Positions 12,665 through 33,538 of a stretch of 42,703 bases of DNA are shown here, one piece after another (position 1 is the stretch's first letter; every line of letters starts with the position of its first letter). Under the pieces are notes generated by a model. It was not told where the DNA came from. It did not search any database and saw only the letters and a list, made by a program, of their open reading frames with translations. This DNA is from Actinomycetota bacterium. GTDB lineage: Bacteria; Actinomycetota; Thermoleophilia; RBG-16-64-13. The stretch covers positions 1-42,703 of the forward strand of contig JAAYZX010000004.1 in the NCBI GenBank assembly GCA_012514635.1. Direction: 5' to 3'. The translations under genes were made by a program, and so were the position numbers.

Positions 12665-12977
12665 GGGGCCGAGGGCGGGCGGCGGGGCGGAACGAGACGG
12701 GACGCCGGCGGCAAAATGCCACCAGGCAGGTCCGCGCCTTCGTGGCTTCGAGGCAGATTGGATGCGTTCCCCCAAAGTATATATAAATTTTGGTTGCTGC
12801 CGATATAGATATTAGCCTTCTTTATCGTATGCCGGGCTTCGAGCCGTCCGCCGGGTGTTGTACCATAGGGGACGGCTCGTCCATGTCCGGTGCAAGAAAG
12901 AGGGGGCCCGCGGCCCGGTTCTAGGTCTACGGTTCGGTAACAGGGCCGACGGCCTCGTGCAGCCCGAGGGGGTGCGG
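12665..12977 (+). promoter_or_regulatory. Leader of the defence operon, with AT-rich promoter zone and inverted repeat
   Basis: This 313-bp gap contains a conspicuously AT-rich patch at about 12775-12830 (TATATATAAATTTT and on), the most likely promoter for the downstream unit. After it, a perfect 10-bp inverted repeat (CGAGCCGTCC at 12840-12849, GGACGGCTCG at 12870-12879) flanks a 20-nt spacer. It could be a regulator site or an RNA hairpin in the 5' leader. The frame of the helicase is open from 12855, but the likely start is 12978. Confidence 0.45.
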
Positions 12978-15900
12978 ATGGACATCTTCGATCTTCACAG
13001 TCGGCTTATTGAGGACTACCAGCAGTACGTGGAGAGCTTCATCCGAATTAAAGACGGGCGCATTCGCGGCCGGGTCGATGAAGCGATAGATGGGGGCCTC
13101 TTTTGGCCCGCTCCCTTAGCGCAGCTGAACCCTTCCTTCGAATCGGGCGGCCGGATCGCCGAACTGGTGACCGCCGATGTGCTCCATCCGGAGTGTGAGC
13201 GGGTATTTCGGGTGGCCAAGGACCAAGACGGTACGGGGAAGCCCATCATTCTCCACCGTCATCAGGCCGAGGCCGTGCGCGCTGCCGCCTCCGGGGACAA
13301 CTACGTGCTGACTACGGGGACCGGCTCCGGCAAAAGCCTCGCTTACATCATCCCCATTGTGGATCGGGTGCTTCGCGAGGGCTCCGGCAAAGGTATTCGC
13401 GCGATCATCGTCTATCCCATGAATGCCCTGGCCAATAGCCAGGCAGGAGAGCTGACCAAGTTCCTCTGTGACGGCTATCCAGACGGCAAAGGCCCCGTCA
13501 CCTTTCGTCGCTATACCGGCCAGGAGTCGGACGAGGAGCGGCAGGAGATCATCGGCAGCCCGCCGGATATTCTTCTTACGAACTATGTGATGTTGGAGCT
13601 TATCCTTACCCGTCCCAAGGAAGAGGGCTTGATCGGGGCGGCGCAGGGTCTGCAGTTCTTGGTGCTGGACGAGCTACATACCTACCGTGGGCGGCAGGGG
13701 GCGGATGTGGCCTATCTGGTGCGGCGGGTACGTGACCGCTTGGCGCCCGGAGGACTGCAGGTGGTGGGAACATCGGCGACGTTGGCCGGTCCCGGCTCCT
13801 ACGACGAGCAGAGGGCCGAGGTGGCGCGAGTGGCCTCGCAGCTGTTTGGGGCATTGGTGAAGCCTGAGCGGGTCATCGGTGAGACGTTGCGTCGCGCCAC
13901 GGCGCCGGCGTCGTTGAATGACCAGGCCTTCATGGAGGCGCTTCGTGACTCCATAGCAGAAAGCGGGGGCCCGGTTCCAGAGCGATACGAGGATTTCTTG
14001 GCCCATCCGATGGCGCGCTGGATCGAAGGAGCGTTGGGCGTGGAGCCTGATCCCGATACCGGGCACCTAGTGCGCGTGCGGCCCAGGAGTATCAGTGGGG
14101 AGGAGGGTGCGGCCCAGGCTCTGTCCGATCTTACGGGCGCTCCGAGGGAGGCGTGCGCTGAGCGCATCGCCGATTTCCTGCTCGGTGCCGGCCGATGCGA
14201 GCGTGATCCGGTCACCGGCTTCCCGCCGTTCGCCTTCCGACTGCATCAGTTCATCAGTCGGGGTGACGCCGTGTACGCCTCACTTGAGCGGGGGACGGAT
14301 CGCTATCTGACCACCAATGCTCAGCAGTATGTACCGGGTTCGCGGGACAAGGTGCTTTTCCCGTTGGCCTTCTGTCGCGAATGCGGACAGGAGTATTACG
14401 TGGTGCGCTGCCTTGAGGATCCCGGCGGTGGGTGGGTGTTCACGCCCCGTCTGGTCTCCGAGCGGGTTACTAAGGAAGACCGTACCGCGGGGTTTCTATA
14501 CCTCGGCGGCGCCAACCCGTGGCCCGAAGATGGGGACGCCGTGCTCGATCGCCTGCCCGAGGACTGGATCCAGCTGACCAACGGTGGGCGGAGGGTGCGC
14601 AGAGATATGGTGAAGAGGCTGCCGCAGGCGGTCCGCGTGCTCCCTAACGGGGTCGCCGGCGAAGGGGTCGCCACCGGCGCAAGCGCCCCCTGGGCAGCCG
14701 CCGGGAGGGCTGCAGATCACGGGGTGGCCGCCGGTGACGTCACCAGCGATGGCATCAACGCCACCCCCGGCGCAAGCGACCCCCGGGCTGCCGCCACCAC
14801 CGATGGCTCCACCACTGCCACCACCGCCGACGCAGTGGCCTGTCACTACCTGCCGGCACCGTTCAGGTTCTGTCTCTCCTGCGGGGTGTCCTACGCAGCA
14901 CGCATCGGTGACTTCGTCAAACTGGGACAACTGGGCTCGGAAGGGCGGAGCACGGCCACCACCATCCTGGGCCTGGCGGCCATCCGCAATCTGCGCGCCG
15001 ACACTGATCTTCCCCTACGCGCACGCAAGCTTCTCAGCTTCACCGACAATCGCCAGGACGCCTCGCTGCAGGCCGGCCATTTCAACGATTTCGTGGAGGT
15101 TGATCTTCTGCGCTCGGCGCTCTACCGGGCGGTGGCGGAGGCGGGGGAGACGGGCATTCGCCACGACATGCTGACCCAGAGGGTCTTCGATGCGCTGGAT
15201 CTACCTCTGGAGCAGTATGCCGCCGATCCTACGGCCAACAAGTACGCCGCCCTCACCAACACGCGGGCTGCTCTGCGCAGAGTGATTGGCTATCGACTGT
15301 ATCGAGATCTGCAGAAGGGTTGGCGCATCACCCTGCCCAACCTGGAGCAGTGTGGGCTTCTCAAGATCGATTACGAGTCGCTCGACGAGCTGTGCGCCTC
15401 CGAAGAGGAGTGGGCCGGGACTCACGCGGCTTTGGTGACGGCCGCCCCTGAGCAGCGCAGCGCCATCGCCCGCACCATGCTCGATTGGATGCGGCGTGGG
15501 CTCGCCATCAAGGTGGATTTCCTGCAGGCCGAGTCGCAGGAGGGCCTCAAGCAACAGAGCAGCCAGCACCTCTGCGCGCCCTGGGCCATCGACGAGCGGG
15601 AGAAGCTTGAGACCTCTCGCATGGTATTCCCGCGCTCCTCCAGGCGCGACGACTCTAGAGAGCACCTCTTCCTCTCGGGGAGGGGAGGCTTCGGTCAGTA
15701 TCTGCGGCGTCCCACCACCTTGCCGCAGCATGATGCTCGGCTGCCGGTGGCGGAGGCGGAGATCATCATCCGGCAACTGCTCGAAGTTCTGCGCCGGGCC
15801 GGTCTGGTGGAGCCCGTGAGCGAAGGGAAGGGGGTTGAGGTCCCCGGATACCAGGTTCCGGCGGCGGCCATGATCTGGAGGGCCGGCGACGGCGTCACTC

Positions 15901-18410
15901 CCTACCACGACTTCATCCGGGTGCCGAGTCCACCGGCGGGCGGCGGTCGCGCTAACGAGTTTTTTCTCGGTTTCTACAAGAACACGGCCCGCTCCATCGT
16001 CGGCATCGAGGCCAGGGAGCACACCGCCCAGGTCGCCTACTCTGACAGGGAGGAGCGGGAAGAACGTTTCCGCGAGGGAAGACTTCCCGTTCTCTTCTGC
16101 TCTCCCACCATGGAGCTGGGGGTGGATATCGCCGAGCTCAACGTGGTCAACATGCGCAACATTCCGCCCAACCCGGCCAACTACGCGCAGCGGAGCGGGA
16201 GGGCGGGCCGCAGCGGTCAACCCGCCTTGGTCTACAGCTACTGTACGGTGGGGAGCCCACACGACCAGTACTTCTTCAAGCGCCCGGAACTCATGGTGGC
16301 GGGCGCGGTGACGCCGCCGCGGCTCGATCTGGCCAACGAGGATCTCATCCGTGCTCACATACACGCCGTGTGGCTGGCGGAGACCGGGTTGTCGCTGGGC
16401 AAGTCGTTGGTTGAGCTGCTCGACGTGGGTGGCGACGACCCGACGCTGGCCCTCCAGGAACAGGTGCGAGCTGCTATCGAGGCCAAGATGCCCTTGGAGA
16501 GGACGCGGGTTCGGGCCGCATCGATTCTCGACGGTTGCCGGGATGAGCTCGAAGAAGCCGACTGGTACAGCGAGGGTTGGCTGGACGAGGTCTTGGAGCA
16601 GGTGGCGCTCCGCTTCGACCGGGCCTGTGACCGCTGGCGCAGCCTCTACCGCAGCGCGCTCAGCCAGCGGGAGACCCAACACAAGATCGCGGGCGATCCT
16701 TCGCGGAGCGCTCCGGACCGAGCCTTGGCCAAGCGTCTTCGGGCCGAGGCCGAGCAGCAGATGAACCTGCTCACCGACGTCGATAGGCTGCTGCAATCCG
16801 ACTTCTACAGCTACCGCTACTTCGCCAGTGAGGGCTTTCTCCCCGGCTACAGCTTCCCGCGACTGCCACTGTCGGCGTTCATCCCGGGCAGGAGGGTGGG
16901 GGCCACAGGCAGGAGAGCGGGTAGGGGCTTTGGGGAACAGGAGGAGTTCCTGCAGCGGCCGCGGTTCTTGGCCATTTCCGAGTTCGGTCCCCGGGCCATC
17001 GTCTACCACGAGGGGGCGCAGTACGTAATCAACAAGGCCATCCTGCCGGTGAGGGAAGGGGAAGATTTGACCCAGAACCGGGCCAAGATCTGCTCCCAGT
17101 GCGGGTACCTGCATCAGTTCGAGGAGGGCGACGGCCCCGATCTGTGCAGTAGTTGCGGCGCCTACCTAGGCCAGGCGCTCACCAATCTGTTCCGTCTGCA
17201 GAATGTGTCGACCCAGCGGCGTGAGCGCATCACCTCTGACGAGGAGGAGCGCATGCGACAGGGCTACGAGTTGGCCACCGCCGTTCGCTTGGGCCACGAC
17301 GGCGTCAAGATGCACGGCAGCACGGCGATGGTCACGGCCGCCGCCGGTGGAGCGGCCACTGCGGGTGGAGCGGCCGTCCGTGCGGGGGAAGCGGGGGGCC
17401 CCGTCGCCAAGCTCACCTACGGGCACGCGGCACTGATCTGGAGGATCAATAAGGGCTGGGCCCGGCGGAAGGACAAAGCGCAACTGGGCTTCGTCCTGGA
17501 TATCGAACGGGGCTACTGGGCCAAGAACGAGGACGACGACCTCGACGATGACGACCGGGACCCGATGTCGCCGCGCATCGCCCGCGTGATCCCCTTTGTG
17601 GAGGACCACCGCAACTGTCTGTTGATAGACATGGCCACGCCGCTCACCGCCACCGAGAACGCCTCCCTGCAGGCGGCGCTGAAGCGCGCCGTGCAGGCCC
17701 GCTACCAGCTGGAGGACAACGAGCTGGCGGTGGAGTCGCTGCCCGGCGACGACGATCCCCGCCGCATCCTTCTGTACGAGGCGGCGGAGGGCGGAGCCGG
17801 GGTGCTTCGCCAACTCCTGAATCCGGGAGCGCTGAGCGCGGTGGCGCGGGAGGCCTTGTCACTCTGTCATTTCGATGCGGACACCGGTGAGGATCTTCGG
17901 CGCGCACCCCGGGCCAAAGAGGACTGCGAGGCCGCCTGCTACGACTGCCTCATGAGCTATCAGAACCAGCGCTACCATCAGCTCCTCGATCGCCAGACGA
18001 TCAAGAACGTACTGCTCCAGTTGCGCGACGCCGGTGTGGAGGCTTCGCCCACCAACCTGTCCCGGACCGAGCATCTCCAGGTGCTCATGAACCAGGCGGG
18101 CTCTGAACTGGAGCGCTCGTGGCTCGGTCTGCTGGAACGGCAGAATCTCCATCTCCCTTCGCACGCGCAGAAGTTGGTGGAAGCCTGCGAAACCCGTCCC
18201 GACTTCCTCTATGCGGAGGAGCAGGTAGCCGTGTATATCGACGGGCCGCCGCACGATTTCCCGGAGCGCCAAGCGCGCGATCATGCCCAGACGGAGGCCA
18301 TGAACGATTACGGTTATACGGTGGTGCGTTTCCACCACCAGGACGACTGGGTAGCGATCATCGACCGGTACCCGTATGTGTTTGGAAAGGTCGAAGGAGG
18401 CGCGTCGTGA
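12978..18410 (+). CDS. Giant DEAD/DUF1998 helicase with C-terminal Vsr-like domain (DrmA/DruE-like)
   Basis: This superfamily 2 helicase of 1810 residues has Walker A TGTGSGKS near 112-119, the DEAH-type box DELH near 231 and SATL near 264. The second RecA core has [10 protein letters not shown] near 1040 and the arginine-finger motif [10 protein letters not shown] near 1072. Cys pairs (FCRECG, FCLSCG, CSQCG with CSSCG) suggest zinc binding. The DUF1998 region lies near 1580-1690, with GGAGVLRQL and [12 protein letters not shown]. The last 100 residues ([21 protein letters not shown]) match Vsr/DUF559-type restriction-endonuclease folds. DrmA of DISARM and DruE of Druantia share the helicase-DUF1998 layout. 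ATG 12978 has GAGGGG upstream. It heads the defence unit. Alanine/glycine-rich inserts lie near residues 560-615 and 1450. Confidence 0.85.
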
Positions 18411-18580
18411 GGCGTGGCGCGAGGTGTGGCGCCACGGCCGGCGCCCGGGTTGGGGCCGCGTCGGGCGCGACGCCGAGCCGGGCGGCACCCCGTATGGGCG
18501 TCTTCGCCGTGGCCGCAGCCGGCGCCGCTGCCGCGCCGCCGGGCCGTGCCGCCGGCGCCCCCGAAGGAGGCGGCGCATGA
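18407..18580 (+). CDS. 57-residue Ala/Gly/Pro-rich micro-ORF between the two helicases
   Basis: GTG 18407 overlaps the helicase stop (GTGA) and follows a consensus AAGGAGG eight bases upstream. The frame ends at TGA 18578-18580, overlapping the next start as ATGA. The predicted peptide is basic at the start and then almost wholly Ala, Gly, Pro and Arg (FAVAAAGAAAAPPGRAAGAP). It has no recognisable domain. Its role may be only to carry ribosomes from one helicase gene to the next; the composition resembles the low-complexity inserts within the flanking proteins. Real translation is unproven. Confidence 0.45.
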   Translation: MRRGARCGATAGARVGAASGATPSRAAPRMGVFAVAAAGAAAAPPGRAAGAPEGGGA

Positions 18581-21429
18581 GTTTTGCCGTGGGTTCTCTG
18601 GTGCGGGCTCGAGGGCGGGAGTGGGTGGTTCTGCCCGAATCCGAGGGCGATCTGCTGGTGCTCCGCCCGCTGCGCGGCACCGAGGATGAGGTCACCGGCG
18701 TCCTGCGGACCCTGGAGAAGGTGGAATCCGCACAGTTCGCTCTGCCCGACCCCGGTGATCCGCGGCAGATCGGCGACTATCGCTCGGCGCGGCTGCTGCG
18801 CGACGCCGTGCGCCTCGGCTTCCGTTCGAGTGCCGGTCCGTTCCGCTCCTTTGCCGCCGTGGCGGTGGAGCCGCGCCCGTACCAGTTGGTGCCGCTGCTG
18901 ATGGCGCTCCGTCTGGACCCCGTGCGCATCCTCATCGCCGACGACGTGGGCATAGGCAAGACCATCGAGGCGGGATTGATCGCCAAGGAGCTCTTGGCCC
19001 GCGGGGAGGTGGAGCGCCTGGCCGTGCTCTGTCCGCCGGCCCTGGCCGAGCAGTGGCAGGGAGAGCTCAGCGACAAGTTCCATATCGATACCGAATTGGT
19101 GCTCTCGTCCACGGTGAGGCGACTCGAACGCCATTGCGGTCCCAACGAGTCCCTCTTCGACCGCCACCCCTTCGTGGTGGTGTCCACAGACTTCATCAAG
19201 TCGCCGCGCCACGTGGAGGAGTTCAAGCGGGCCTGTCCGGAGATGGTCATCGTGGACGAGGCCCACACCTGCGCCTCCGCCGGCGACGGTCGCAGCGCCC
19301 AGATCCAGCGCCACAGGCTGGTGGCGGGTCTGGCGGCCGACCCCACGCGCCACCTCATCCTGGTCACCGCCACGCCTCACAGCGGCAAAGAGGAGGCGTT
19401 CCGGTCCCTTCTGGGATTTCTTGATGAAGAATTCCTGCAACTTCCCACTGAGCTTGGCGGGAACCACAATCGTGCTCATCGCCAACGGCTTGCTCGGCAT
19501 TTTGTCCAACGCCGCCGAGGCGACATCAAACAGTACTTGGACGAGGATACACCCTTCCCCGCCCGCGAAGAGGCCGAGGACACTTATAAACTTTCATCCG
19601 AATACAAGAAGCTTTTCGACCGAGTGCTTCGTTATGCTCGGGAGACGGTGCAGGATGCGGCCGGTGACCATCGTCGTCGCGTGCGTTGGTGGTCGGCGTT
19701 GGCGTTGCTGCGTTCGCTGGCCTCCAGTCCCGCAGCGGCCGCGGCCACCATGCGCACCCGGGCCGCCGCCGCCGACACCGAGACTTCCGAAGAGGCCGAC
19801 GAGATCGGTCGCCGCACGGTCCTCGATCTCATGGACGCCGATCTGTCCGAAGGAGTCGACGTCATCCCCGGCGGCGACGCGGACGAAGAAGGTGAAGAGG
19901 CCGGCGCCCGCCGCCGTCTGCTGGAGATGGCCCGCGAGGCCGACGCACTTCGAGGCGCCAAGGACACCAAACTCAAAAAGGCCGTGAAGCTCGTCTCGGA
20001 GCTTCTGGCCGACGGCTACCGTCCCATTGTTTTCTGCCGCTTCATCGATACCGCCGAATACGTGGCCGAGGCTATGCGCAGGGCATTGAAGGGCACCGAG
20101 GTGGCGGCCGTGACCGGCACCCTCCCCCCGGACGAACGCGAGATGCGGGTGGCCGCCCTCGCCGAGCATCCCAAGCGGGTGCTGGTGTGCACCGACTGCC
20201 TGAGCGAGGGCATTAACCTGCAGGAGCACTTCGACGCCGTGCTCCACTACGATCTCTCCTGGAACCCCACTCGCCACGAGCAGCGCGAAGGACGCGTGGA
20301 TCGCTACGGCCAGCGCAGCGACAATGTGCGCGTCCTTACCTACTACGGCACCGACAACCAGATCGACGGCGTGGTGCTGAACGTGTTGTTGCGCAAACAT
20401 AAGGCCATCCGCAGTTCGTTGGGAATATCCGTGCCGGTACCCGTCAATACTGAAGCTCTAGTAGAGGCTCTGCTTGAAGGGATCCTTCTTCGGGAGAAGA
20501 GTGGCGGGAGCCCCGATCAGCTCATGTTCGAGCTGGACGATCTCGAAAACCTCGTCGAACAGCGCGACACGGTCCACCGTGAATGGGAAGTGGCGGCCGA
20601 CCGGGAGAAGCGCTCCCGGACCATGTTCGCGCAGGAGACCATCAAGGTGGGCGAGGTGGCGCAGGAGCTGTCTGAGATGCGTGCGGCCATCGGCAGCAGA
20701 CTGGATGTCAAGCACTTCATTCACGATGCGCTCCGGGCCAACCGGGCTGTGGTGACCGGCGACGAGGCGGTCAAAGTGGATCTGGCCGAGACGCCGCGGG
20801 CGCTCCGTGATGCCATGGGCCTCTTCGATAGCGACGACTTCCAGGGGCGCTTCGAGTTGCCCGTGGCCGATGGGGAGGTGTACCTCTCGCGCACCCATCC
20901 GTACGTGGAGGGTCTCGCCGCCCACACCGCCGACTCCGCTCTGGATGGACTCGAAGAAGCCCCGGCCAAACGGATGGGAGTGATCCGAACAACCGGGGTA
21001 GCGAAGCGGACCACGCTTCTGCTCCTCCGTCTGCGCTTCCACATCAGTGATGTTGTGGGCCGGCAGGGGGCGCTGCTGGCCGAGGAGTCCCAGTTGATCG
21101 GGTTCCAAGGAGCTCCGAGCGGCGCCGAATGGCTGACCGGCGAAGAGGTGGAGGAGCTTCTCGAGGCGACTCCGGGCGCATCCATCGGCCTCGACCAACA
21201 GCGCGATGCGTTGGAGCGCATCCTCGCCGACTTCGATGAGGTGGCCCCCCATCTGCAGAGCGTGGCGGAGGAGCGCGCTCAGGTCCTCGCCGACTCGCAC
21301 GACCGGGTGCGACGGGCCGTGACCCGAGCCGGCGGCCGGACGGCCGGCGCCGCGACCAAGGTGACGCCCGAGCTCCCGGTGGACGTGCTGGGTGTATACG
21401 TGTATCTGCCGGGTGGGGGTGGGGTGTGA
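18577..21429 (+). CDS. SNF2-family helicase (DrmD/BrxHII-like)
   Basis: This 950-residue Swi2/Snf2 ATPase has DDVGIGKTIEAGL (Walker A) near 120, VDEAHTC (DEAH box) near 225, and TATPHSGK near 263. The C-terminal RecA lobe has IVFCRFIDTAEYVAE near 485 and CLSEGINLQ through REGRVDRYGQ near 540-578. Such helicases appear as DrmD in class 1 DISARM and BrxHII in some BREX loci, where they are thought to translocate on invading DNA. ATG 18577 is chosen because AAGGAGG lies six bases upstream; the longer reading from 18376 would add an implausible arginine-rich tail overlapping the previous gene. An Ala-rich insert sits near residues 385-410. The preceding micro-ORF overlaps it by four bases. Confidence 0.9.
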   Translation: MSFAVGSLVRARGREWVVLPESEGDLLVLRPLRGTEDEVTGVLRTLEKVESAQFALPDPGDPRQIGDYRSARLLRDAVRLGFRSSAGPFRSFAAVAVEPRPYQLVPLLMALRLDPVRILIADDVGIGKTIEAGLIAKELLARGEVERLAVLCPPALAEQWQGELSDKFHIDTELVLSSTVRRLERHCGPNESLFDRHPFVVVSTDFIKSPRHVEEFKRACPEMVIVDEAHTCASAGDGRSAQIQRHRLVAGLAADPTRHLILVTATPHSGKEEAFRSLLGFLDEEFLQLPTELGGNHNRAHRQRLARHFVQRRRGDIKQYLDEDTPFPAREEAEDTYKLSSEYKKLFDRVLRYARETVQDAAGDHRRRVRWWSALALLRSLASSPAAAAATMRTRAAAADTETSEEADEIGRRTVLDLMDADLSEGVDVIPGGDADEEGEEAGARRRLLEMAREADALRGAKDTKLKKAVKLVSELLADGYRPIVFCRFIDTAEYVAEAMRRALKGTEVAAVTGTLPPDEREMRVAALAEHPKRVLVCTDCLSEGINLQEHFDAVLHYDLSWNPTRHEQREGRVDRYGQRSDNVRVLTYYGTDNQIDGVVLNVLLRKHKAIRSSLGISVPVPVNTEALVEALLEGILLREKSGGSPDQLMFELDDLENLVEQRDTVHREWEVAADREKRSRTMFAQETIKVGEVAQELSEMRAAIGSRLDVKHFIHDALRANRAVVTGDEAVKVDLAETPRALRDAMGLFDSDDFQGRFELPVADGEVYLSRTHPYVEGLAAHTADSALDGLEEAPAKRMGVIRTTGVAKRTTLLLLRLRFHISDVVGRQGALLAEESQLIGFQGAPSGAEWLTGEEVEELLEATPGASIGLDQQRDALERILADFDEVAPHLQSVAEERAQVLADSHDRVRRAVTRAGGRTAGAATKVTPELPVDVLGVYVYLPGGGGV

Positions 21430-21465
21430 GGCGACGGATCATCACTGCATCAGCGTCATCTCGGG

Positions 21466-21477
21466 TACCATATGGTA
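21466..21477. promoter_or_regulatory. 12-bp perfect palindrome upstream of hicB
   Basis: TACCATATGGTA lies 30 bp before the HicB start in the only sizeable gap between the SNF2 and HicB genes. It is a candidate operator for an internal promoter of the toxin-antitoxin pair. Confidence 0.4.
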
Positions 21478-21507
21478 GGTGGCAAGTAGTCGAAGGGATT
21501 TGTAGTC

Positions 21508-21714
21508 ATGAAGTTCTTCGTTACGATGGACAGGGACGAGGATGGAGCCTGGATCGCGGAGTGTCCGTCTATCCCCGGCTGCGTGAGTCAGGGGGATACT
21601 CGGGAGGAGGCTCTTGCCAACGTGCGGGAGGCGATCGTCCTCTGCTTGGAGGTCCGCGCCGAACGTGGTCTGCCGCTCACCATCGAGACCAAACTGGTCG
21701 AGGTGGCTCTCTAG
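21508..21714 (+). CDS. hicB: HicB-family antitoxin
   Basis: This 68-residue protein has the HicB partial RNase-H-like fold: KFFVTMDRDEDGAWIAECP, the IPGCVSQGDT turn and EEALANVREAI. HicB neutralises the HicA mRNA interferase by direct binding. The protein stops after this domain; the C-terminal ribbon-helix-helix or HTH that many HicB proteins use for autoregulation is missing, so repression by HicB alone is doubtful. It precedes hicA with no spacer. An AAGGGA site lies a little upstream. Confidence 0.9.
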   Translation: MKFFVTMDRDEDGAWIAECPSIPGCVSQGDTREEALANVREAIVLCLEVRAERGLPLTIETKLVEVAL

Positions 21715-21945
21715 ATGTCTCCGTTGCCCTTACTGAGTGGGCGCGAGATCGTAAAGGTGTTCGAGTCCCTCGGCTGGGAAGTCGCACGTCGGCGGGGCAG
21801 TCATATCGTGCTGGTCAAGGATGGATCGTCGGCGACGCTCTCTGTTCCAGATCATCGGCCGGTCGCCAGGGGCACACTACGTTCTCTCATACGCGCGGCG
21901 GATCTGACTGTCTCGGAGTTCGTCGCCGCGGCAGACGAGTTGTAG
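21715..21945 (+). CDS. hicA: HicA-family mRNA interferase toxin
   Basis: This 76-residue toxin has the double-stranded-RNA-binding-like fold. The catalytic histidine is His30 in RRGSHIVLVK, preceded by LSGREIVKVFESLGW and followed by SVPDHRPVARGTLRSLIRAADL, all typical of HicA. It cleaves mRNA when free of HicB. Its ATG follows the hicB stop directly (TAG ATG). The placement inside a defence operon, between helicase and methyltransferase genes, would let damage to the operon release the toxin. That role is an inference; HicBA pairs are also common passengers. Confidence 0.92.
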   Translation: MSPLPLLSGREIVKVFESLGWEVARRRGSHIVLVKDGSSATLSVPDHRPVARGTLRSLIRAADLTVSEFVAAADEL

Positions 21946-21958
21946 CAGGCTTCGCTCA

Positions 21959-21980
21959 ATCCGGCGCTTCTTCGCCGGAT
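21959..21980 (+). other. Intra-operon hairpin between hicA and the methyltransferase gene
   Basis: ATCCGGCG, loop CTTCTT, CGCCGGAT forms a perfect 8-bp stem in the 57-bp gap. No U-tract follows. It may be an RNA-processing or attenuation element that sets methyltransferase level separately from the toxin pair. Confidence 0.45.
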
Positions 21981-22002
21981 CTCCTAGGTGGGGGCTTCTG
22001 AC

Positions 22003-26132
<4,130 letters not shown>

Positions 26133-26136
<4 letters not shown>

Positions 26137-26453
26137 CAACGACCGCTCGTTCTCACTTCAATCGGGACATCCAAAGAGCGGAGGCGATGCTCGATCAAGT
26201 GCGGTATCTGGACGATGACGTCACAAGGACGCAGCTTGCTCTGGATCTACGCGTTGCCGCAATCGCTATGGCAGTCGGCGCCATGGATGCTCACCTCTGC
26301 AACAAGTACGTAGACTGCCCCTCGACGGTCCTTAAGGCCTACGCGAAGGGTCGCTGGAATGGCTCCCTTCCAAAAGCCTGCGCAGATGCTCGTCTTCCAG
26401 CCAGCGACGTGCTCGACACATCCAGGAAGGCGGGGCCTGCGTGGGGCATTTGA
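26133..26453 (+). CDS. N-terminal part of a HEPN-type protein (split gene, part 1)
   Basis: The 106-residue product starts inside the methyltransferase stop (ATGA) and contains a helical segment (RAEAMLDQVRYLDDDV, then RVAAIAMAVGAMDAHL) that fits the first helices of RiboL-PSP-type HEPN proteins. It ends at TGA 26451-26453, directly followed in the same frame by ATG. In relatives, as I recall them, the sequence continues without a break into the part encoded by the next feature. It therefore looks like one HEPN gene interrupted by a nonsense codon, or two chains made by termination and reinitiation. Confidence 0.6.
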
Positions 26454-26855
26454 ATGGCAGCCAGGACAATCATGGAGATGGACAGCATGCTGTCCATTTC
26501 TCGCCTAGACGATGTGTTCAATCCAATTCTGGCTTCGGGTCACAAGCTCTGGGCGGACTTCATCGTGGCAATGGTGGCGCACGGCCGGGTTCGTCTGACG
26601 GGGCCCAAGACGGCTGCCGAAGTAGCGGCGCTATCTGGCGAAGACAAAGAGAAGGCCACGAAGAAGGCGATTGACGTGTTGCAGAAGCGCATAGGGTGCA
26701 TTGTCAAAACCCGGCACGATTGGATCCATAACTGTGGTAGGCCCAAGACCGTCATCCAGAAGTGCTCGTATGGCGAAGCTTGCTGCCGCGTGCGCGACGT
26801 GAAGTTGTTCGTCGTCACCCTCGACAACTTCATAGAAACACATCGTCTGGCGTAG
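26454..26855 (+). CDS. C-terminal HEPN domain with R-x4-H motif (split gene, part 2)
   Basis: The 133-residue product carries SISRLDDVFNPILASGHKLW and the catalytic HEPN motif as R87-x4-H92 in TRHDWIHNCGRPK. This is the active-site signature of HEPN ribonucleases used as abortive-infection or toxin effectors. It is in the same frame as the previous ORF with no gap (TGAATG), so reinitiation could supply it. The motif residues are retained, which argues against simple long-term decay. Which RNA it would cut, and what keeps it inactive, cannot be read from sequence; the upstream helicases, the methylase or the following 1171-residue protein are possible partners. Confidence 0.6.
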   Translation: MAARTIMEMDSMLSISRLDDVFNPILASGHKLWADFIVAMVAHGRVRLTGPKTAAEVAALSGEDKEKATKKAIDVLQKRIGCIVKTRHDWIHNCGRPKTVIQKCSYGEACCRVRDVKLFVVTLDNFIETHRLA

Positions 26856-26930
26856 GTCATGGGTCTAGCGAGCCTTCAGTTGGCGCGGCGCGCGCCCGAA
26901 AATCTCCTATCAAGGACAGGGGGGAATGGA

Positions 26931-29900
26931 ATGAACAAGGGCTTCGACAATGAACTGGACCGGCCAGTGCAGGGCAAGAGGCCTTGTTCGTTGCAGTTCA
27001 TGGATGCTAGACAGGAAAGAATTCAGCGGAGGCTTCAGCTCATCGGCCCTGGTCCGGCAGCGTTCTTTGGCGATTGCTGTCGTCTAATCAGCCGTGACTG
27101 CGACGTGGCTTCCAAGACGCATCTCATCGGGCACCTACTTCGAGAGATTGAGAGCGCCCTAAGAGATGTTCTCGAGCCCTACATAGTGCCTGAAGGCGCC
27201 GAGGGGTCAAAGCGCGGCAGAAGCTCAGACAAGCATGCGGATGAGATTCGATCGGTCGCTGTGGCTCTCGACATGTCGGAAGACGACCCAGTATTGATCA
27301 CTTGGCTCAGCCTTGCCGGTCAGAAGTCTGGTGCGGCCTTGCACCGGCGCGCCCACAGACAAGACCTCGGTTTTCGGAAGGTGGATCCCGAATTTCAGCA
27401 GTGGTGGGAGAACGTGCAGTCTGTCTTTGACGCCGTTCTCCAGAGGTTTGAAGAAAGGTACGCGGCGGTCTTCGAGATCCTAGACCGGCTTCTGGCGAGC
27501 CAACCAGATGTAGACACTCTGAGAAACCACGTCCCCAACAATCATACCGTGCATCGCTACTTCTTCTCGAAGCTGAACGATCCATCCTGGGTGGCACCCC
27601 TCTTGGAAGCAGGGATACTTGAGCGTCCGCCCGAACCGGAGATTGTAGAAGATGGTGGTGGCGTCCGTTTTCCAGGGTGGCCCATAGTCGAGTACTTGGA
27701 AAGGATGGCCGCTGGCCATCCCGGAATTCATCAGGATGTTCTGGACGCAGTTCTCCTGGTTCCGGAGACGACCAATGTGCGCGTGCACCACGGCTTGCTT
27801 CTGGTGGCGCTGAATTTGCCACCAGCCATGAGCAAAGAACTTGCCTCAGAGGTCATTCGATGGATGAACGGCCCCCACAGACCGCTATCTGGTATTGAGT
27901 ACGCGAAACTCGTTCGGTGTCTTGCCGTTGGCGGAGCAGAAGCTGAGGCGCTCGACCTTGCCGCAGGTCTCTTTGCGATTTCTGGGGACGGAGATAGCCT
28001 GGCTCCGGATGCTGCTCCTCTGCGCATGAGTATCTGGGAATACGAGAAGTGCCTGGACGTAGCTCTATCGTCGCTAGCGGAAGCCGCGCCGTTGCCCACC
28101 CTCACGCTCATGTCTAATCTGCTTGAGGAAGCGATTATGGTAGGAGGGCACGTACCCGGAGGGCCCGGGGGAGACCATGGTGGGAGCGATCTGTCGCATC
28201 TCTGGCGACCTGCAATCGAGGATCACGCTCAGAATCGGGATTACGACAATCTCCCAGGCTTGCTCATCAAGGCGACCAGGGACGTGGCTCTTACGACTGC
28301 GGAGAAAAGACCCGAGCTCATACCAGAATTGCTTGCAGCACTCCAAACCAGGGCCCTTCGAGTGTTCCGACGCATCGCTCTGCATATGCTTCGAGTCTGC
28401 TCGCAGAACGCCCTTGATGCCGTCCGGGCGAGTCTTCTTGACCGCTCTTTCTTCGACGACCCCGGCTTGCTGCACGAGTACTACCACTTGCTTCACGACT
28501 GCTTCGGCATTCTTTCTCTCGACGATCAGGCGGTGATTCTCGGCTGGATTGACGAGGGTCCGGACAGCGGTGAGCGGGCGACTTGGTTTCTAGAGCAGGA
28601 AGGGAGGCTACCGACTGACGACCAGGTCACGAACTACTGCGACTTCTGGCGCATAAAGAAGCTAATGCCTATCAAGGAGCTTCTGCCCGAGGCGCGGAAG
28701 CAGTGGTTCGATCAAATGGTCGCGAGGCTTGAGCTTCCTGAACACCCTGATTTTGCGGTTTACCGCGGGACTTTCGTGGGGCCCACGAGCCCCTTGGAAC
28801 TCGAGGACATCCAGACCATGGAGCCCTCGAGACTCGTAGAGTACCTTGGAAAGTGGGTTCCTTCACAGGAATGGGGCGCACCGACCCCCGGAGGCCTTGC
28901 CAGGCTCGTAACTGCGGCAGTGGCGGACGATCCGTCGCAGTACCTTCCCGTTCTTGCCGAGATCTCGGGAATCGAAACGACCTATGTGCGCGGCATCATG
29001 GAGGGCTTTCGCCTGGCAGTCGGTGACAATAAGCCTTTCGACTGGGGACCGGTGCTTGATCTCGCGAAACAAGCTGTCCTATCACCTTGGCCAATTTCAT
29101 CTGCACCAGGTGAGGTATACGAACGTGATTCTGACTGGAGCGGGACTCGCAAGACAATCGCCTCGGTGATCGAAGCGGGGCTGAGACCGGGAGAGACGGA
29201 GATCCCGGTTACTTTTCGCGACGTCGTTTGGCAGATTCTGAGCTCGTTGGCCGACGACCCTGACCCCAGCATCGCGGACGAAAAACGCTATGGTGACGGC
29301 GGCTTCGACGCTGCGACGATGGCTATCAATACGGTTCGTGGGCAGGCCTTGCATGCTGTGATTCAGTATGGATTGTGGGTGGCGAGAGAGGTTGCCACGA
29401 CTCGAGACGACAAGGGAAACCCTCCCCCAGACGGAGCGGCTGTCCCCGAGCTATGGCCGATCCTTGATGGACATCTTGACACCGTCCGAGATCCCTCGCT
29501 CGCGATTCGTTCGGTCTATGGTCAGTGGTTTCCTTGGATTCACTTTTTAGGAAGAGACTGGGCCGTCTCGCGGCTGGACGCGATTTTCCCTCGCGACCCG
29601 GACCATGCACCGTGGTGGACTGCCGCGTGGATCGCCTATGTGATGCACAGTCGACCCTTCGATGATGTCCTCCCGATTCTGAGGCCGACCTACGAGCATG
29701 CTGTCAAGCTTATGAAGGCGGATGAGGAGCCACTGTTGTTTGGCGACAGACCCTCCGAACGCCTCGGCGAGCACCTCGCTGCCTATGTGTGGCGCGGGGC
29801 GATCTCCATTGATCCGGTCGACCTTCTGCTGGCCGAGTTCTGGGGCAAAGCGGACGTCAGTCTTAGACGGCATGTGCTCACCTACATCGGTCTGAGTCTC

Positions 29901-30446
29901 CACGAATGGCCTCCTGCCGCTACTGATCCGACACTCGCTCCGGTTGTTGACCGGCTGAAGGCTTTCTGGGCATTTGCGCTATCCCAAGCCGACCAGTCGG
30001 AGGGAGGCAGTGAGCTATCGGAATTCGCTCGGTGGTTCGCGTCGGGGCAGTTCGATGACGACTGGGCGTTCGACCAGCTTGAGCTTGCGCTGCAGAAGAC
30101 GAGTCTGCTGAATGGCGCGCGTCTGGTTGCCGAACGCCTTGGCGAAGTCGTGGGAGCACAGCCTTTGCGCAGTGTGCTCATACTAGACAGACTCGTTCAG
30201 AGCGATGTCGAAGGATGGCGCATTCTCGGTTGGGCGGAAGAGGCCAAGAAGGTTATCGAGAAGGCCATGGAAGCCAAGGATGCGAAGACGCAGGCCGCCT
30301 GCGTCGCGCTGGTGAATCGCCTGGTCGCGAAGGGGCACATGGGATTCAGAGAGTTGCTTGACAAGAATGACAATACTCACGGGGGCGAAGAGACGCGACC
30401 AGGAAGGACCCAGATCGACAGGTATCGCAACTTCGATGGGGCGTGA
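26931..30446 (+). CDS. Large helical protein of unknown function (1171 residues)
   Basis: I do not recognise a named family. The N-terminal 200 residues include FFGDCCRLISRDCD, a THLIGHLLREIESALRDVL helix, and LHRRAHRQDLGF followed by a long helical segment, suggesting an all-alpha domain perhaps related to HEPN or its relatives. A segment NHVPNNHTVHRYFFSKL leads into about 900 residues of alternating hydrophobic helices without motif, which looks like HEAT-type repeats. There is no signal peptide, membrane segment, Walker motif or nuclease motif. ATG 26931 is chosen for the GGGGGG six bases upstream; the frame is open from 26859. Position between a HEPN gene and an ATPase-nuclease pair suggests a sensor or scaffold in defence. 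Confidence 0.7.
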   Translation: MNKGFDNELDRPVQGKRPCSLQFMDARQERIQRRLQLIGPGPAAFFGDCCRLISRDCDVASKTHLIGHLLREIESALRDVLEPYIVPEGAEGSKRGRSSDKHADEIRSVAVALDMSEDDPVLITWLSLAGQKSGAALHRRAHRQDLGFRKVDPEFQQWWENVQSVFDAVLQRFEERYAAVFEILDRLLASQPDVDTLRNHVPNNHTVHRYFFSKLNDPSWVAPLLEAGILERPPEPEIVEDGGGVRFPGWPIVEYLERMAAGHPGIHQDVLDAVLLVPETTNVRVHHGLLLVALNLPPAMSKELASEVIRWMNGPHRPLSGIEYAKLVRCLAVGGAEAEALDLAAGLFAISGDGDSLAPDAAPLRMSIWEYEKCLDVALSSLAEAAPLPTLTLMSNLLEEAIMVGGHVPGGPGGDHGGSDLSHLWRPAIEDHAQNRDYDNLPGLLIKATRDVALTTAEKRPELIPELLAALQTRALRVFRRIALHMLRVCSQNALDAVRASLLDRSFFDDPGLLHEYYHLLHDCFGILSLDDQAVILGWIDEGPDSGERATWFLEQEGRLPTDDQVTNYCDFWRIKKLMPIKELLPEARKQWFDQMVARLELPEHPDFAVYRGTFVGPTSPLELEDIQTMEPSRLVEYLGKWVPSQEWGAPTPGGLARLVTAAVADDPSQYLPVLAEISGIETTYVRGIMEGFRLAVGDNKPFDWGPVLDLAKQAVLSPWPISSAPGEVYERDSDWSGTRKTIASVIEAGLRPGETEIPVTFRDVVWQILSSLADDPDPSIADEKRYGDGGFDAATMAINTVRGQALHAVIQYGLWVAREVATTRDDKGNPPPDGAAVPELWPILDGHLDTVRDPSLAIRSVYGQWFPWIHFLGRDWAVSRLDAIFPRDPDHAPWWTAAWIAYVMHSRPFDDVLPILRPTYEHAVKLMKADEEPLLFGDRPSERLGEHLAAYVWRGAISIDPVDLLLAEFWGKADVSLRRHVLTYIGLSLHEWPPAATDPTLAPVVDRLKAFWAFALSQADQSEGGSELSEFARWFASGQFDDDWAFDQLELALQKTSLLNGARLVAERLGEVVGAQPLRSVLILDRLVQSDVEGWRILGWAEEAKKVIEKAMEAKDAKTQAACVALVNRLVAKGHMGFRELLDKNDNTHGGEETRPGRTQIDRYRNFDGA

Positions 30447-30510: not shown

Positions 30511-31617
30511 ATGATTCGGCGTCTGTACATCGACAACTACAAGTGCCTCGTCAACTTTGAGCTTCCGCTGCAAGAAGCGACTCTACTGCTGGGTCCCAAC
30601 GGTGCTGGTAAGACCTCGGTGCTGGACGTGGTGTTCGCGCTGCGCCGCCTACTTAGCGGGCAGGTGAAGGTCACCGATGCCGACGCCTTTCCCTCGGCGA
30701 CTCTGACGCGTTGGCAGAGCCGGAAGATTCAGACCGTGGAGATGGACGTGCTGCTGGACAGTGAGGAGATTCGCTATCGTCTGGAGATTGAGCACAGAAG
30801 GGCTACTGGCGAAGCCCGCATCATTGTTGAGCGACTAGAGTCCGGTAAGAGGCCTCTCTTTGTGTTCGAAAAGGGCGAGGTCCACCTATATCGCGATGAC
30901 CATTCCGAAGGCCCGGTATTCGGGGCTGACTGGACCGAATCAGCTCTTGCTCGGGTTTCGCCGAGGGACGACAACACGAGGCTCAATCAGTTCCTAGACT
31001 CTATCCGCAAAACCATCGTCTGCGGTCTATATCCTGCGGGCTTCAGAACCGAAGCCTCGGCAGCAGACGCGATGCTCAGGCGGGACGCCAACAACTTCGC
31101 CGCCTGGTATCAGCATTTAGTCTTGGAGAGACAGGAGAAACTACCTGAGCTCTTCGACGCTCTTCAGGAAGTAATCGACGGCTTCCGTAGTCTGTCCATG
31201 CCTCCCGTTGGCTTGGACACCCGCGCGTTGATGCTAGCTATTGAAGAACACGGGCAGCGATATGAGCTCAGGCTCGATGAGATTTCCGACGGCCAGCGTG
31301 CGCTGGTCGCCCTTTACTCTCTTGTTAGGCTTGCGGCTGGACAGGGATATACACTTTTTCTCGATGAGCCAGAGAACTATCTGGCACTTGCCGAGATCCA
31401 ACCATGGCTCATCGAGCTGGTTAACGCCTCGGGCGGAGAGGTACCTCAGGCGGTCCTCTGCTCGCACCACCCTGAGTTGATTGACTACCTCGGGGTAGAC
31501 CACGGGCTAGTACTGCGCAGGGAGAGCTCGGGCGTCACTGTGGTGCGTCCGGCGAGTGAGCTCGCAACTGATGGCGGACTCAGGCTCTCAGATATCATCG
31601 CTCGCGGGTGGGAGTGA
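30511..31617 (+). CDS. AAA_21/OLD-type ATPase (AriA-like)
   Basis: This 368-residue ABC-like ATPase of the OLD/RloA type has Walker A GPNGAGKT at 28-35, the signature-like ISDGQRAL near 257, Walker B LFLDEPEN near 281, and the switch histidine in CSHHPELIDYL near 317. The first residues, MIRRLYIDNYKCL, are typical of the class. OLD ATPases sense or load nuclease partners in defence. Unlike OLD itself it has no C-terminal TOPRIM domain; that domain is supplied by the next gene, which overlaps it by one base. This two-gene layout resembles PARIS (AriA plus AriB). A GGAGGAGG ribosome site precedes ATG 30511. Confidence 0.88.
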   Translation: MIRRLYIDNYKCLVNFELPLQEATLLLGPNGAGKTSVLDVVFALRRLLSGQVKVTDADAFPSATLTRWQSRKIQTVEMDVLLDSEEIRYRLEIEHRRATGEARIIVERLESGKRPLFVFEKGEVHLYRDDHSEGPVFGADWTESALARVSPRDDNTRLNQFLDSIRKTIVCGLYPAGFRTEASAADAMLRRDANNFAAWYQHLVLERQEKLPELFDALQEVIDGFRSLSMPPVGLDTRALMLAIEEHGQRYELRLDEISDGQRALVALYSLVRLAAGQGYTLFLDEPENYLALAEIQPWLIELVNASGGEVPQAVLCSHHPELIDYLGVDHGLVLRRESSGVTVVRPASELATDGGLRLSDIIARGWE

Positions 31618-32153
31618 TGCCCCGCAGGGTCAACATCGTCATTCTCTGCGAAGATACTCAACAGGGAGTTTTCGCCAACAGGTTCCTCGAGTTGGCAGGC
31701 AAGAGCATCAGAGTCATGCGCATCGAGAAGGGCCCGGGCGAGGCCTTTGTGCGGAAGCAGTTTCCCAAGGAATTGGCCTATTATCGGGCACGGAAGCACA
31801 AGGTCGACCAAGCACTCATTGTCATCATCGACGCGGACACGCTAGGCGTCACCAAGCGCGTGAAGCAGCTCGAGGCGGCCATCAGCGAGGCTGGCCAGGA
31901 CCCGCGAGGTGTAGATGAAAGGGTCGCGCTTTTTGTCCCCGCCCGCAATATCGAGACATGGATCGCCTATCTTGACGGTCAGACCGTCAACGAAAGCGAT
32001 CCTTACCCCAAGTTGAGGCTTGAAAGCGATTGCAGACGGGCTGTTCGCTGCCTTCATGACATGTGTCAGCGGAACGCCCTTCGCGAGCCTGCCCCGCCGT
32101 CGTTGAAACAAGCGTGCGACGAGTATCGCTCACGTCTGGGTAGGCAGATCTGA
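31617..32153 (+). CDS. Stand-alone TOPRIM-like nuclease partner of the ATPase
   Basis: This 178-residue protein has the TOPRIM signature: acidic E12 in VILCEDTQQG at the first strand and the DxD pair D72/D74 in VIIDADT. Then come VALFVPARNIETWIAYL and SDCRRAVRCL, which recur in the companions of AAA_21 ATPases. TOPRIM domains of this kind cut nucleic acids with metal ions in OLD and PARIS systems. ATG 31617 uses the last base of the ATPase stop (TGATG), so the two are translationally coupled. It lacks the longer body of DUF4435 AriB proteins, so it would be a compact variant. The nuclease role is inferred from the motif. Confidence 0.72.
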   Translation: MPRRVNIVILCEDTQQGVFANRFLELAGKSIRVMRIEKGPGEAFVRKQFPKELAYYRARKHKVDQALIVIIDADTLGVTKRVKQLEAAISEAGQDPRGVDERVALFVPARNIETWIAYLDGQTVNESDPYPKLRLESDCRRAVRCLHDMCQRNALREPAPPSLKQACDEYRSRLGRQI

Positions 32154-32172: not shown

Positions 32173-33312
32173 TTGGGAGAGAACGGCATCGCCGTTGTTC
32201 ACGTTGACATAAGACCCGAGATGCTTCGGTGGGCATGGGAGCGCGCCGGATACGACTTGGACGACCTTGCCGGGCGCATCCCTCAGCTATCCTCCTGGCA
32301 TCAAGGAGAGAAACGGCCCACCTTGAAGCAGCTTGAGGATTTCGCCAAGGTCACGCGCGCCCCGATGGGCTACCTGTTCCTGGCTGAGCCGCCGGTAGAA
32401 CGTATCCCCATTCCCGACCTGCGCACGATCGGGGGCGGCCGTATCGATCGGCCCAGTCCCGATCTTCTCGACACGCTCTATCTCTGCCAGCAGCGCCAAG
32501 AATGGTACCGCGATCATGCGAGGATGAACGGTGAGGCACCGTTGAGCTTCGTCCGTTCTGTGACCACAGACAGTGCCGTTGATTCGGTGGCCGGCGACCT
32601 CCGCCAGGTGTTGGGCTTCGACCTCGATGAACGTCGACGTGCTCCCACTTGGACCGACGCCCTGCGCTCTTTCATCGAGCAGACGGACTCCCTTGGCGTG
32701 CTCGTGATGGTGAGCGGTGTCGTAGGAAACAACACTCATCGCAAGCTCGATCCGGAGGAATTCCGCGGCTTCGCGCTGGTGGATGATCTCGCCCCACTGG
32801 TGTTCATCAATGGAGCAGATACCAAAGCTGCGCAGATGTTCACGCTTGCTCACGAACTCGCGCATGTGTGGCTGGGCGAATCCGCTCTCTCTGACGCCAG
32901 CCCTCTTTCGGCGCCCTCTCGGTCTGTCGAGGCTTGGTGCAACAAGGTGGCAGCAGAGCTTCTCGTGCCCTTGGCCGCTCTGGGGGAGCACTATCGCCCG
33001 GCAGCAGACCTACGGGAGGAGCTCGACCGTCTGGCCAGGGTGTTCAAAGTCAGCACCTTGGTGTTGCTCCGCCGCATCCACGATGCGGGCGGTCTGAGTC
33101 GAGATCTGTTTGAGACGGCCTACGCTCAAGAACTCAAACGGCTCCGCGCCGTTCCTCGAGGAGGTGGCGGAGACTTCTACGCCACGCAATCCGCGCGGGT
33201 GGGGAAGCGTTTCGCCCGAGCATTGGTCGCCAGTACGCTGGAGGGCCAGACACTCTACCGAGATGCATTCCGCCTGCTGGGTATCTCCAAGCTGGCGCCT
33301 CCGCACCGGTGA
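32173..33312 (+). CDS. XRE-family regulator with ImmA/IrrE metallopeptidase domain, C-terminus clipped
   Basis: An N-terminal HTH of XRE type (MLRWAWERAGYDLDDLAGRI, then PTLKQLEDFAKVTRAPMGYLFL) is followed by an ImmA/IrrE domain with the zinc motif HELAH at 227-231. Such proteins repress and, on signal, cleave repressors; many are antitoxins paired with a downstream DUF4411 PIN-like toxin. No such toxin follows. The last residues (RLLGISKLAPPHR) depart from the family and the frame runs straight into an AlbA_2-like fragment, so the final turn of the protein and the partner gene have been lost by rearrangement near 33292. TTG 32173 is used because it keeps the conserved VDIRPEML start; ATG 32221 is an alternative. 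It closes the defence unit. Confidence 0.85.
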   Translation: MGENGIAVVHVDIRPEMLRWAWERAGYDLDDLAGRIPQLSSWHQGEKRPTLKQLEDFAKVTRAPMGYLFLAEPPVERIPIPDLRTIGGGRIDRPSPDLLDTLYLCQQRQEWYRDHARMNGEAPLSFVRSVTTDSAVDSVAGDLRQVLGFDLDERRRAPTWTDALRSFIEQTDSLGVLVMVSGVVGNNTHRKLDPEEFRGFALVDDLAPLVFINGADTKAAQMFTLAHELAHVWLGESALSDASPLSAPSRSVEAWCNKVAAELLVPLAALGEHYRPAADLREELDRLARVFKVSTLVLLRRIHDAGGLSRDLFETAYAQELKRLRAVPRGGGGDFYATQSARVGKRFARALVASTLEGQTLYRDAFRLLGISKLAPPHR

Positions 33313-33538
33313 GCGCGACCCGCGCATCGAGCACAGCGCGCTCAAGACCATCGCCGGCTTCCTGAACGCGAGCGGCGGCACCCTGATCATCGGCGTCGCT
33401 GACGACGGTGTACCGGTGGGTATCCAAGAGGACGGCAACACGGAGCGCTTCTACGTGCGCACCGGCGCCTCGACCACCGAGCTGACGCCCAGCCAGGCCA
33501 ACGAGTACGTGGGGCAGAGGTTCCGGGCGGGGGCGTAG
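33292..33538 (+). pseudogene. AlbA_2-like (Schlafen-type) fragment, copy 1
   Basis: In a frame different from the ImmA gene, the sequence reads WRLRTGERDPRIEHSALKT, AGFLNASGGTLIIGVADDG and then FYVRTGASTTELTPSQ to TAG 33538. This is the AlbA_2 domain (putative DNA-binding, found in ATP-dependent helicase-like regulators), but the 60-70 residues that normally lie between GVADDG and FYVR are missing. It has no start codon of its own because the 5' end was replaced at the junction with the ImmA gene. It is 91% identical to the copy at 40325. Confidence 0.75.

Follow-up and report, generated by a model that had tools for sequence, protein, structure and literature searches.

The gene pair

The window, that is the whole stretch of 42,703 nucleotides analysed here, contains two adjacent genes coding for an OLD/AriA-like ABC ATPase and a small predicted TOPRIM protein (Table 1). 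The ATPase ORF stops at a TGA (31615-31617) whose last base is also the first of the ATG start of the small-protein ORF (start 31617, end 32153), in agreement with the one-base overlap proposed in an earlier, sequence-only reading of this DNA; an alternative GTG start at 31608 would give a small protein of 181 aa. The residue numbers proposed in the same reading for E12 and D72/D74 within the 178-residue protein were rechecked and are correct.

Table 1. Coordinates of the gene pair, its motifs and the annotated upstream genes in the window
Feature	Coordinates	Strand	Basis
OLD/AriA-like ABC ATPase gene, 368 aa, without TOPRIM tail	30511..31617	+	ORF, translation, Pfam, PADLOC, model
Walker A stretch LGPNGAGKT, about residues 27-35 of the ATPase	30589..30615	+	read from sequence
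TGATG, stop/start overlap of the ATPase and small-protein genes	31615..31619	+	sequence
Predicted small TOPRIM protein, 178 aa	31617..32153	+	ORF, AF2 model, conserved residues
E12 codon of the small protein, end of strand 1	31650..31652	+	
D72-A73-D74 codons of the small protein, just after strand 65-70	31830..31838	+	
P108-ARNIETW-115, conserved motif of the small protein	31938..31961	+	27-member alignment
DruE-like helicase with MZB and DUF559	12855-18410		
DpdE-like SNF2 helicase, also DrmD-like	18376-21429		PADLOC (4.7e-269)
191-aa ORF, no assignment, between the SNF2 helicase and methyltransferase genes			
DrmMI/type IIG-like methyltransferase	21988-26136		

The ATPase

The translated ATPase contains the stretches GPNGAGKT, SDGQ, LFLDEPE and SHHP, the first three of which we take to be the Walker A, signature and Walker B motifs, respectively. 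It matches the Pfam families AAA_21 (7.9e-18) and AAA_15. Pfam detected nothing of TOPRIM type in it, so that it lacks the TOPRIM tail of OLD proteins, as had been proposed; the fusion of TOPRIM to ATPase, a trait of class 1 OLD proteins, is thus absent from the pair according to both Pfam and the translation. The idea of a split OLD-type ATPase is supported in the form of an OLD/Rad50-type ABC ATPase accompanied by a separate small protein. The best PADLOC match is HEC-01A (5.4e-26), followed by mad3 (2.1e-24) and AriA (1.6e-19), an assignment based on the ranking of E-values without PADLOC's own cut-offs. HEC-01A is also the best match for two of the three relatives whose ATPases were compared, AbiLi being the best for the third (L005). 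The structure model of the ATPase is weak (pLDDT 63.2), hence its near-tied structural neighbours, Rad50 (Z 14.5), AriA (Z 13.0) and PtuA (Z 12.4), are only supportive.

The small protein

The candidate catalytic residues are retained in nearly all of the 27 near-full-length members of the small-protein family (E12 in 27, D72 and D74 in 26 each), the DxD stretch being altered in locus L027. A second motif, P108 to W115, is similarly conserved (P108 and W115 in 27 of the 27 members, I112 in 26, E113 and T114 in 24 each). In the best AF2 model (pLDDT 83.6, pTM 0.83), a strand at residues 5-11 is followed by E12 and a strand at 65-70 by D72/D74, which corresponds to the TOPRIM layout of a glutamate after strand 1, DxD after a later strand and a Rossmann-like sheet, and a helix at 112-119 contains part of the P-x-RNIETW motif. 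The pLDDT values of the five models were 83.6, 79.8, 68.7, 58.7 and 47.8, only the best two being confident.

Foldseek searches of PDB and BFVD with this model gave no match at E <= 0.001, generic Rossmann-like rows being returned. With VIA-align, three OLD TOPRIM chains reached Z values of 6.6, 6.2 and 6.1 (137-141 residues aligned), the best being 6nk8 (Z 6.6, 141 residues aligned, 4.2 A, rank 9), with unrelated folds around them scoring up to Z 7.2, and by the guidance of the program a Z under 8 may reflect a common arrangement only. AriB is not among the VIA-align matches listed, which excludes nothing. At the sequence level, the window protein has no significant match in Pfam, NCBIfam, PHROG or PDB sequences, and the family profile has no credible match in PDB sequences. 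The small protein is therefore likely a TOPRIM protein by motif and modelled topology, the fold searches being no proof of it. The TOPRIM fold claimed by the sequence-only reading thus stands as regards motif and topology, and not as regards the fold searches, where the TOPRIM chains lay among unrelated folds. A predicted structure devoid of this fold, named there as the ground for rejecting the claim, was not what we obtained, a result of limited weight given these searches.

Affiliation of the small protein

A profile built from 27 family members was compared by hhalign with five TOPRIM-type families (13 HEC-01B, 13 DUF4276, 9 DUF4435, 13 RloB and 3 OLD proteins). HEC-01B is the closest, with 90 and 94% in the two directions and a score of 45-52, none of 60 column shuffles exceeding 17.7, and the E and DxD residues of the two profiles align. 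The other values are 44 and 66% for RloB (over about 110 columns), 7 and 29% for DUF4435, 9 and 2% for DUF4276 (a set not overlapping HEC-01B) and 0.3 and 0.6% for OLD C-termini (three sequences only). HEC-01B, RloB, DUF4276 and DUF4435 score above all 60 column shuffles; OLD-TOPRIM, which had been put forward for comparison, does not with these three sequences.

HEC-01B is likewise the top PADLOC match in all five relatives tested (0.001-0.03), and its model PDLC04200 matches 7/27 family members (best 1.2e-9). The window protein itself scores weakly with PADLOC HEC-01B (3.9e-4) and is reached at 0.02 by the HEC-01B profile built here; for this reason we regard it as belonging to a divergent HEC-01-like subfamily and not as a proven member of HEC-01B. 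DUF4276, also suggested by the sequence-only reading, is nearer the mark than DUF4435, as the 13 HEC-01B proteins all lie above its cut-off. Nevertheless, the window protein has no Pfam match to DUF4276 at E <= 5, only 3/27 family members match it (best 6.7e-4), and the low direct hhalign values (2-9%) count against simply filing the protein there, given that all HEC-01B proteins pass the cut-off. Pfam DUF3226 matches 5/27 family members (best 5.1e-6) and not the window protein; RloB, in spite of its hhalign values, has no Pfam match in the window protein or in the 27 members. In the literature searched, which included neither the preprint on HEC systems nor the survey of ABC ATPases, nothing relevant was found on HEC-01, DUF4276 or DUF3226. 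From these profile comparisons, we conclude that the small protein lies near HEC-01B/DUF4276, as a distinct subfamily.

Comparison with PARIS and other ATPase-TOPRIM systems

The sequence-only reading had described the pair as a PARIS-like system and possibly a distinct minimal variant of it. Like the window pair, PARIS has a separate OLD-type ATPase and TOPRIM-type protein (excerpts of PMC10568477), whereas the window partner is smaller, lacks DUF4435 and has low profile similarity to it. A genuine PARIS system in which AriB is shortened, for which the AriA match of the ATPase, the presence of AriA among the best structural neighbours of its model and one family member out of 27 matching AriB at 0.052 could be invoked, is very unlikely: Pfam finds DUF4435 in none of the window protein's sequence and in one of 27 family members (E 0.068), the hhalign values of DUF4435 stand far below those of HEC-01B, and both HEC-01A and mad3 score above AriA for the ATPase. 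DUF4435/AriB was accordingly rejected as the family of the small protein. Triggering by Ocr-like proteins is a further trait of PARIS, as is the cleavage of tRNA.

The proposed minimal variant is not borne out by size either. HEC-01 is a PADLOC candidate system made of an ATPase (HEC-01A) and HEC-01B, adjacent and with A first, as in the window. In 13 HEC-01B loci, the domain spans 178-215 aa and an ORF of 335-464 aa lies directly upstream; the distance from its end to the point where the domain begins is -40 to +6 bases, and a Walker A is present in 11/13. A protein of 178 aa is therefore ordinary for this layout, small separate TOPRIM partners being usual and not exceptional, and the pair appears as a divergent relative of a kind of two-gene system that has been catalogued before, and not as a new minimal design. 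It differs from HEC-01 in its weak HEC-01B score and in lacking the DUF4276 match common to the 13 HEC-01B proteins.

ATPases are reported to be associated with Toprim in OLD, Gabija, retrons, AbiL, MADS and PARIS (PMC12409363, in excerpt). AbiL and MADS resemble the window pair on the ATPase side, through the AbiLi and mad3 models. Class 1 OLD and Gabija GajA share with it the type of ATPase and the modelled TOPRIM-like fold; in contrast, the window has two genes and no GajB helicase.

Conservation and distribution of the pair

Six loci were found in an initial scan of contigs from genomes. Five of them were true relatives, each having the ATPase immediately before the small protein. The sixth (L006), where the match was a short PARNIETWI stretch of an unrelated protein, was a false positive and was dropped, as was a weak 51-residue match (L030). 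The family then comprises 34 distinct loci, 27 of them near full length. In 31 of the 34, an ATPase lies directly upstream, and the distance between the end of its profile match and the point where the small-protein match begins is -11 to +10 bases, which argues that the pairing is more than chance; the exceptions are L027, L029 and L040, the last of which starts at a contig end. Moreover, the tree distances of the two proteins correlate (r 0.82, with 0/2000 permutations as high) over 24 of the 27 pairs, the other three being excluded because their ATPase match was absent or split.

In three Beggiatoa-type pairs, dN/dS is 0.14-0.20 for the small protein and 0.11-0.17 for the ATPase. The window pair and its nearest relative (L031) share 63% and 73% amino acid identity, with differences at the three codon positions of 50/42/110 and 86/47/205, i.e. 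an excess at third positions. By these codon comparisons, both genes are under purifying selection in the pairs tested.

The family was found in only one of 396 genomes sampled from the phylum of the window, which is the window's own genome. It is present in 9/146 genomes of the order of G419 (Desulfobacterales, home of L005), in 12/201 of the phylum of G418 (home of L004, Chthonomonadales) and in 2/185 of the class of G416, the second of which (G741) had a partial and weak match (1.6e-4) that was dropped. The presence of L031 in the phylum of G418, together with the 395 other genomes of the window's phylum having no match, suggests a transfer of the pair between phyla. No relatives were found in viral_contigs at the settings used, nor in phages and plasmids with a single query.

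The Desulfobacterales genome G419 harbors five copies of the small protein (L011, L014, L016, L017 and L018), along with seven HEC-01B matches (E <= 1) and nine DUF4276 matches (E <= 0.001). Broken or truncated copies occur at L013, L025, L028, L015 and L029. Upstream of the broken copy at L025, a frame (L025:3-644, + strand) matches the HEC-01B profile built here (1.2e-5).

Possible function

The gene pair, its conservation and the candidate catalytic residues are observed directly, as is a modelled fold compatible with TOPRIM. By analogy with PARIS and OLD/Gabija, from which a sensing step, a complex of the two proteins, nuclease action and a role in defence are inferred, the ATPase and the small predicted nuclease probably cooperate as a bacterial anti-virus unit. 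In PARIS, AriA is described as holding AriB until a phage trigger, upon which AriB cuts tRNA (excerpts of PMC12409363), and a fused ATPase-TOPRIM protein of HEC-04 is reported as active against T4 and T5 (PMC12111858, in part). On the basis of these two systems, we lean towards a cassette in which an oligomer of the OLD/AriA-type ABC ATPase would sense a sign of infection and gate the small two-metal TOPRIM nuclease (E12, D72, D74) coded by the overlapping gene. Upon release or activation, this nuclease would cut host or phage nucleic acid, possibly tRNA, like AriB, or DNA, like OLD, and thereby stop the infected cell. Should it prove to be a nuclease, knowing what it cuts would help in deciding whether tRNA cleavage (AriB) or DNA cleavage (OLD) is the common rule for such pairs.

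The observation made by the sequence-only reading is sound, and concerns a conserved pair of an ordinary kind. Its interest lies in a divergent subfamily, unnamed in the libraries searched, which is added to the ATPase-plus-TOPRIM group.

Genomic setting

Upstream of the pair and on the same strand lies an operon of large defence-like genes (12855-30446), composed of DruE-like, DpdE/DrmD-like and DrmMI/IIG-like genes and a gene for a 1195-aa protein, that looks like a mixed DISARM/Druantia/Dpd-type system. The 1195-aa protein (26859-30446) matches residues 549-1073 of the Dsr1 model (3.9e-36); no Pfam domain was found in it, therefore it apparently has no SIR2 domain. At 26133-26855, two ORFs in the same frame, neither with a Pfam match, are split by one stop codon and are possibly one broken gene.

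A gap of 64 bases separates the pair from the last gene of this operon, which codes for the 1195-aa protein, no promoter-like site was found before the pair on the + strand (a weak test in a GC-rich genome), and TOPRIM nucleases are described beside or within BREX-related loci (excerpts of PMC12839542). These points could indicate that the pair belongs functionally to the helicase-methyltransferase restriction system upstream of it (DISARM/Druantia/BREX-related type) and supplies the nuclease for it, instead of being a unit of its own. We consider this unlikely, as the ATPase and the small protein go together in 31/34 loci, and the best 25 of the 53 families matched by neighbours of the relatives (1e-10) include one type IIG RM and no DrmD, DpdE or DruE.

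This survey covered 89 neighbouring proteins from 20 relatives of the 34 loci, one protein of 2299 aa having been left out of 90. Among the best 25 of 53 PADLOC families (E <= 1e-10), each has one to three proteins, and the best 25 of 119 Pfam families are mostly metabolic and signalling. An association with defence islands as a general rule is thus not borne out among these neighbours, the helicase/methyltransferase setting of the window is not typical of the family, and a defence role rests on kinship and on this one setting. The many metabolic genes among the neighbours would also agree with a toxin-antitoxin-like or DNA-repair ATPase-nuclease pair with no primary anti-phage role, as would the patchy spread, the up to five copies per genome, the broken copies and the position of Rad50 as nearest to the ATPase model; its profile kinship with a defence candidate and the defence-like setting in the window make this improbable.

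The ATPase-gated nuclease remains our preferred reading. The few defence neighbours, the five copies in G419 and the broken copies elsewhere fit a solitary mobile unit that a restriction operon can take up, and TOPRIM-linked OLD-ABC modules are presented in excerpts of PMC12839542 as effectors that back up BREX and related systems. Going further, and only tentatively, the family might be a clade of its own, as yet without a name, made up of compact TOPRIM nucleases that are gated by ATPases and marked by CED, IDAD and P-x-RNIETW. It would have spread between phyla as a mobile pair standing alone, and would serve here, beside the restriction operon, as a backup suicide effector whose substrate is unlike that of AriB.

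Directly after the pair, a gene codes for a Peptidase_M78 protein (32173-33312), overlapped by a SLFN_AlbA_2 fragment (33110-33538); a longer SLFN_AlbA_2 protein is likewise located downstream of the pair at locus L144.
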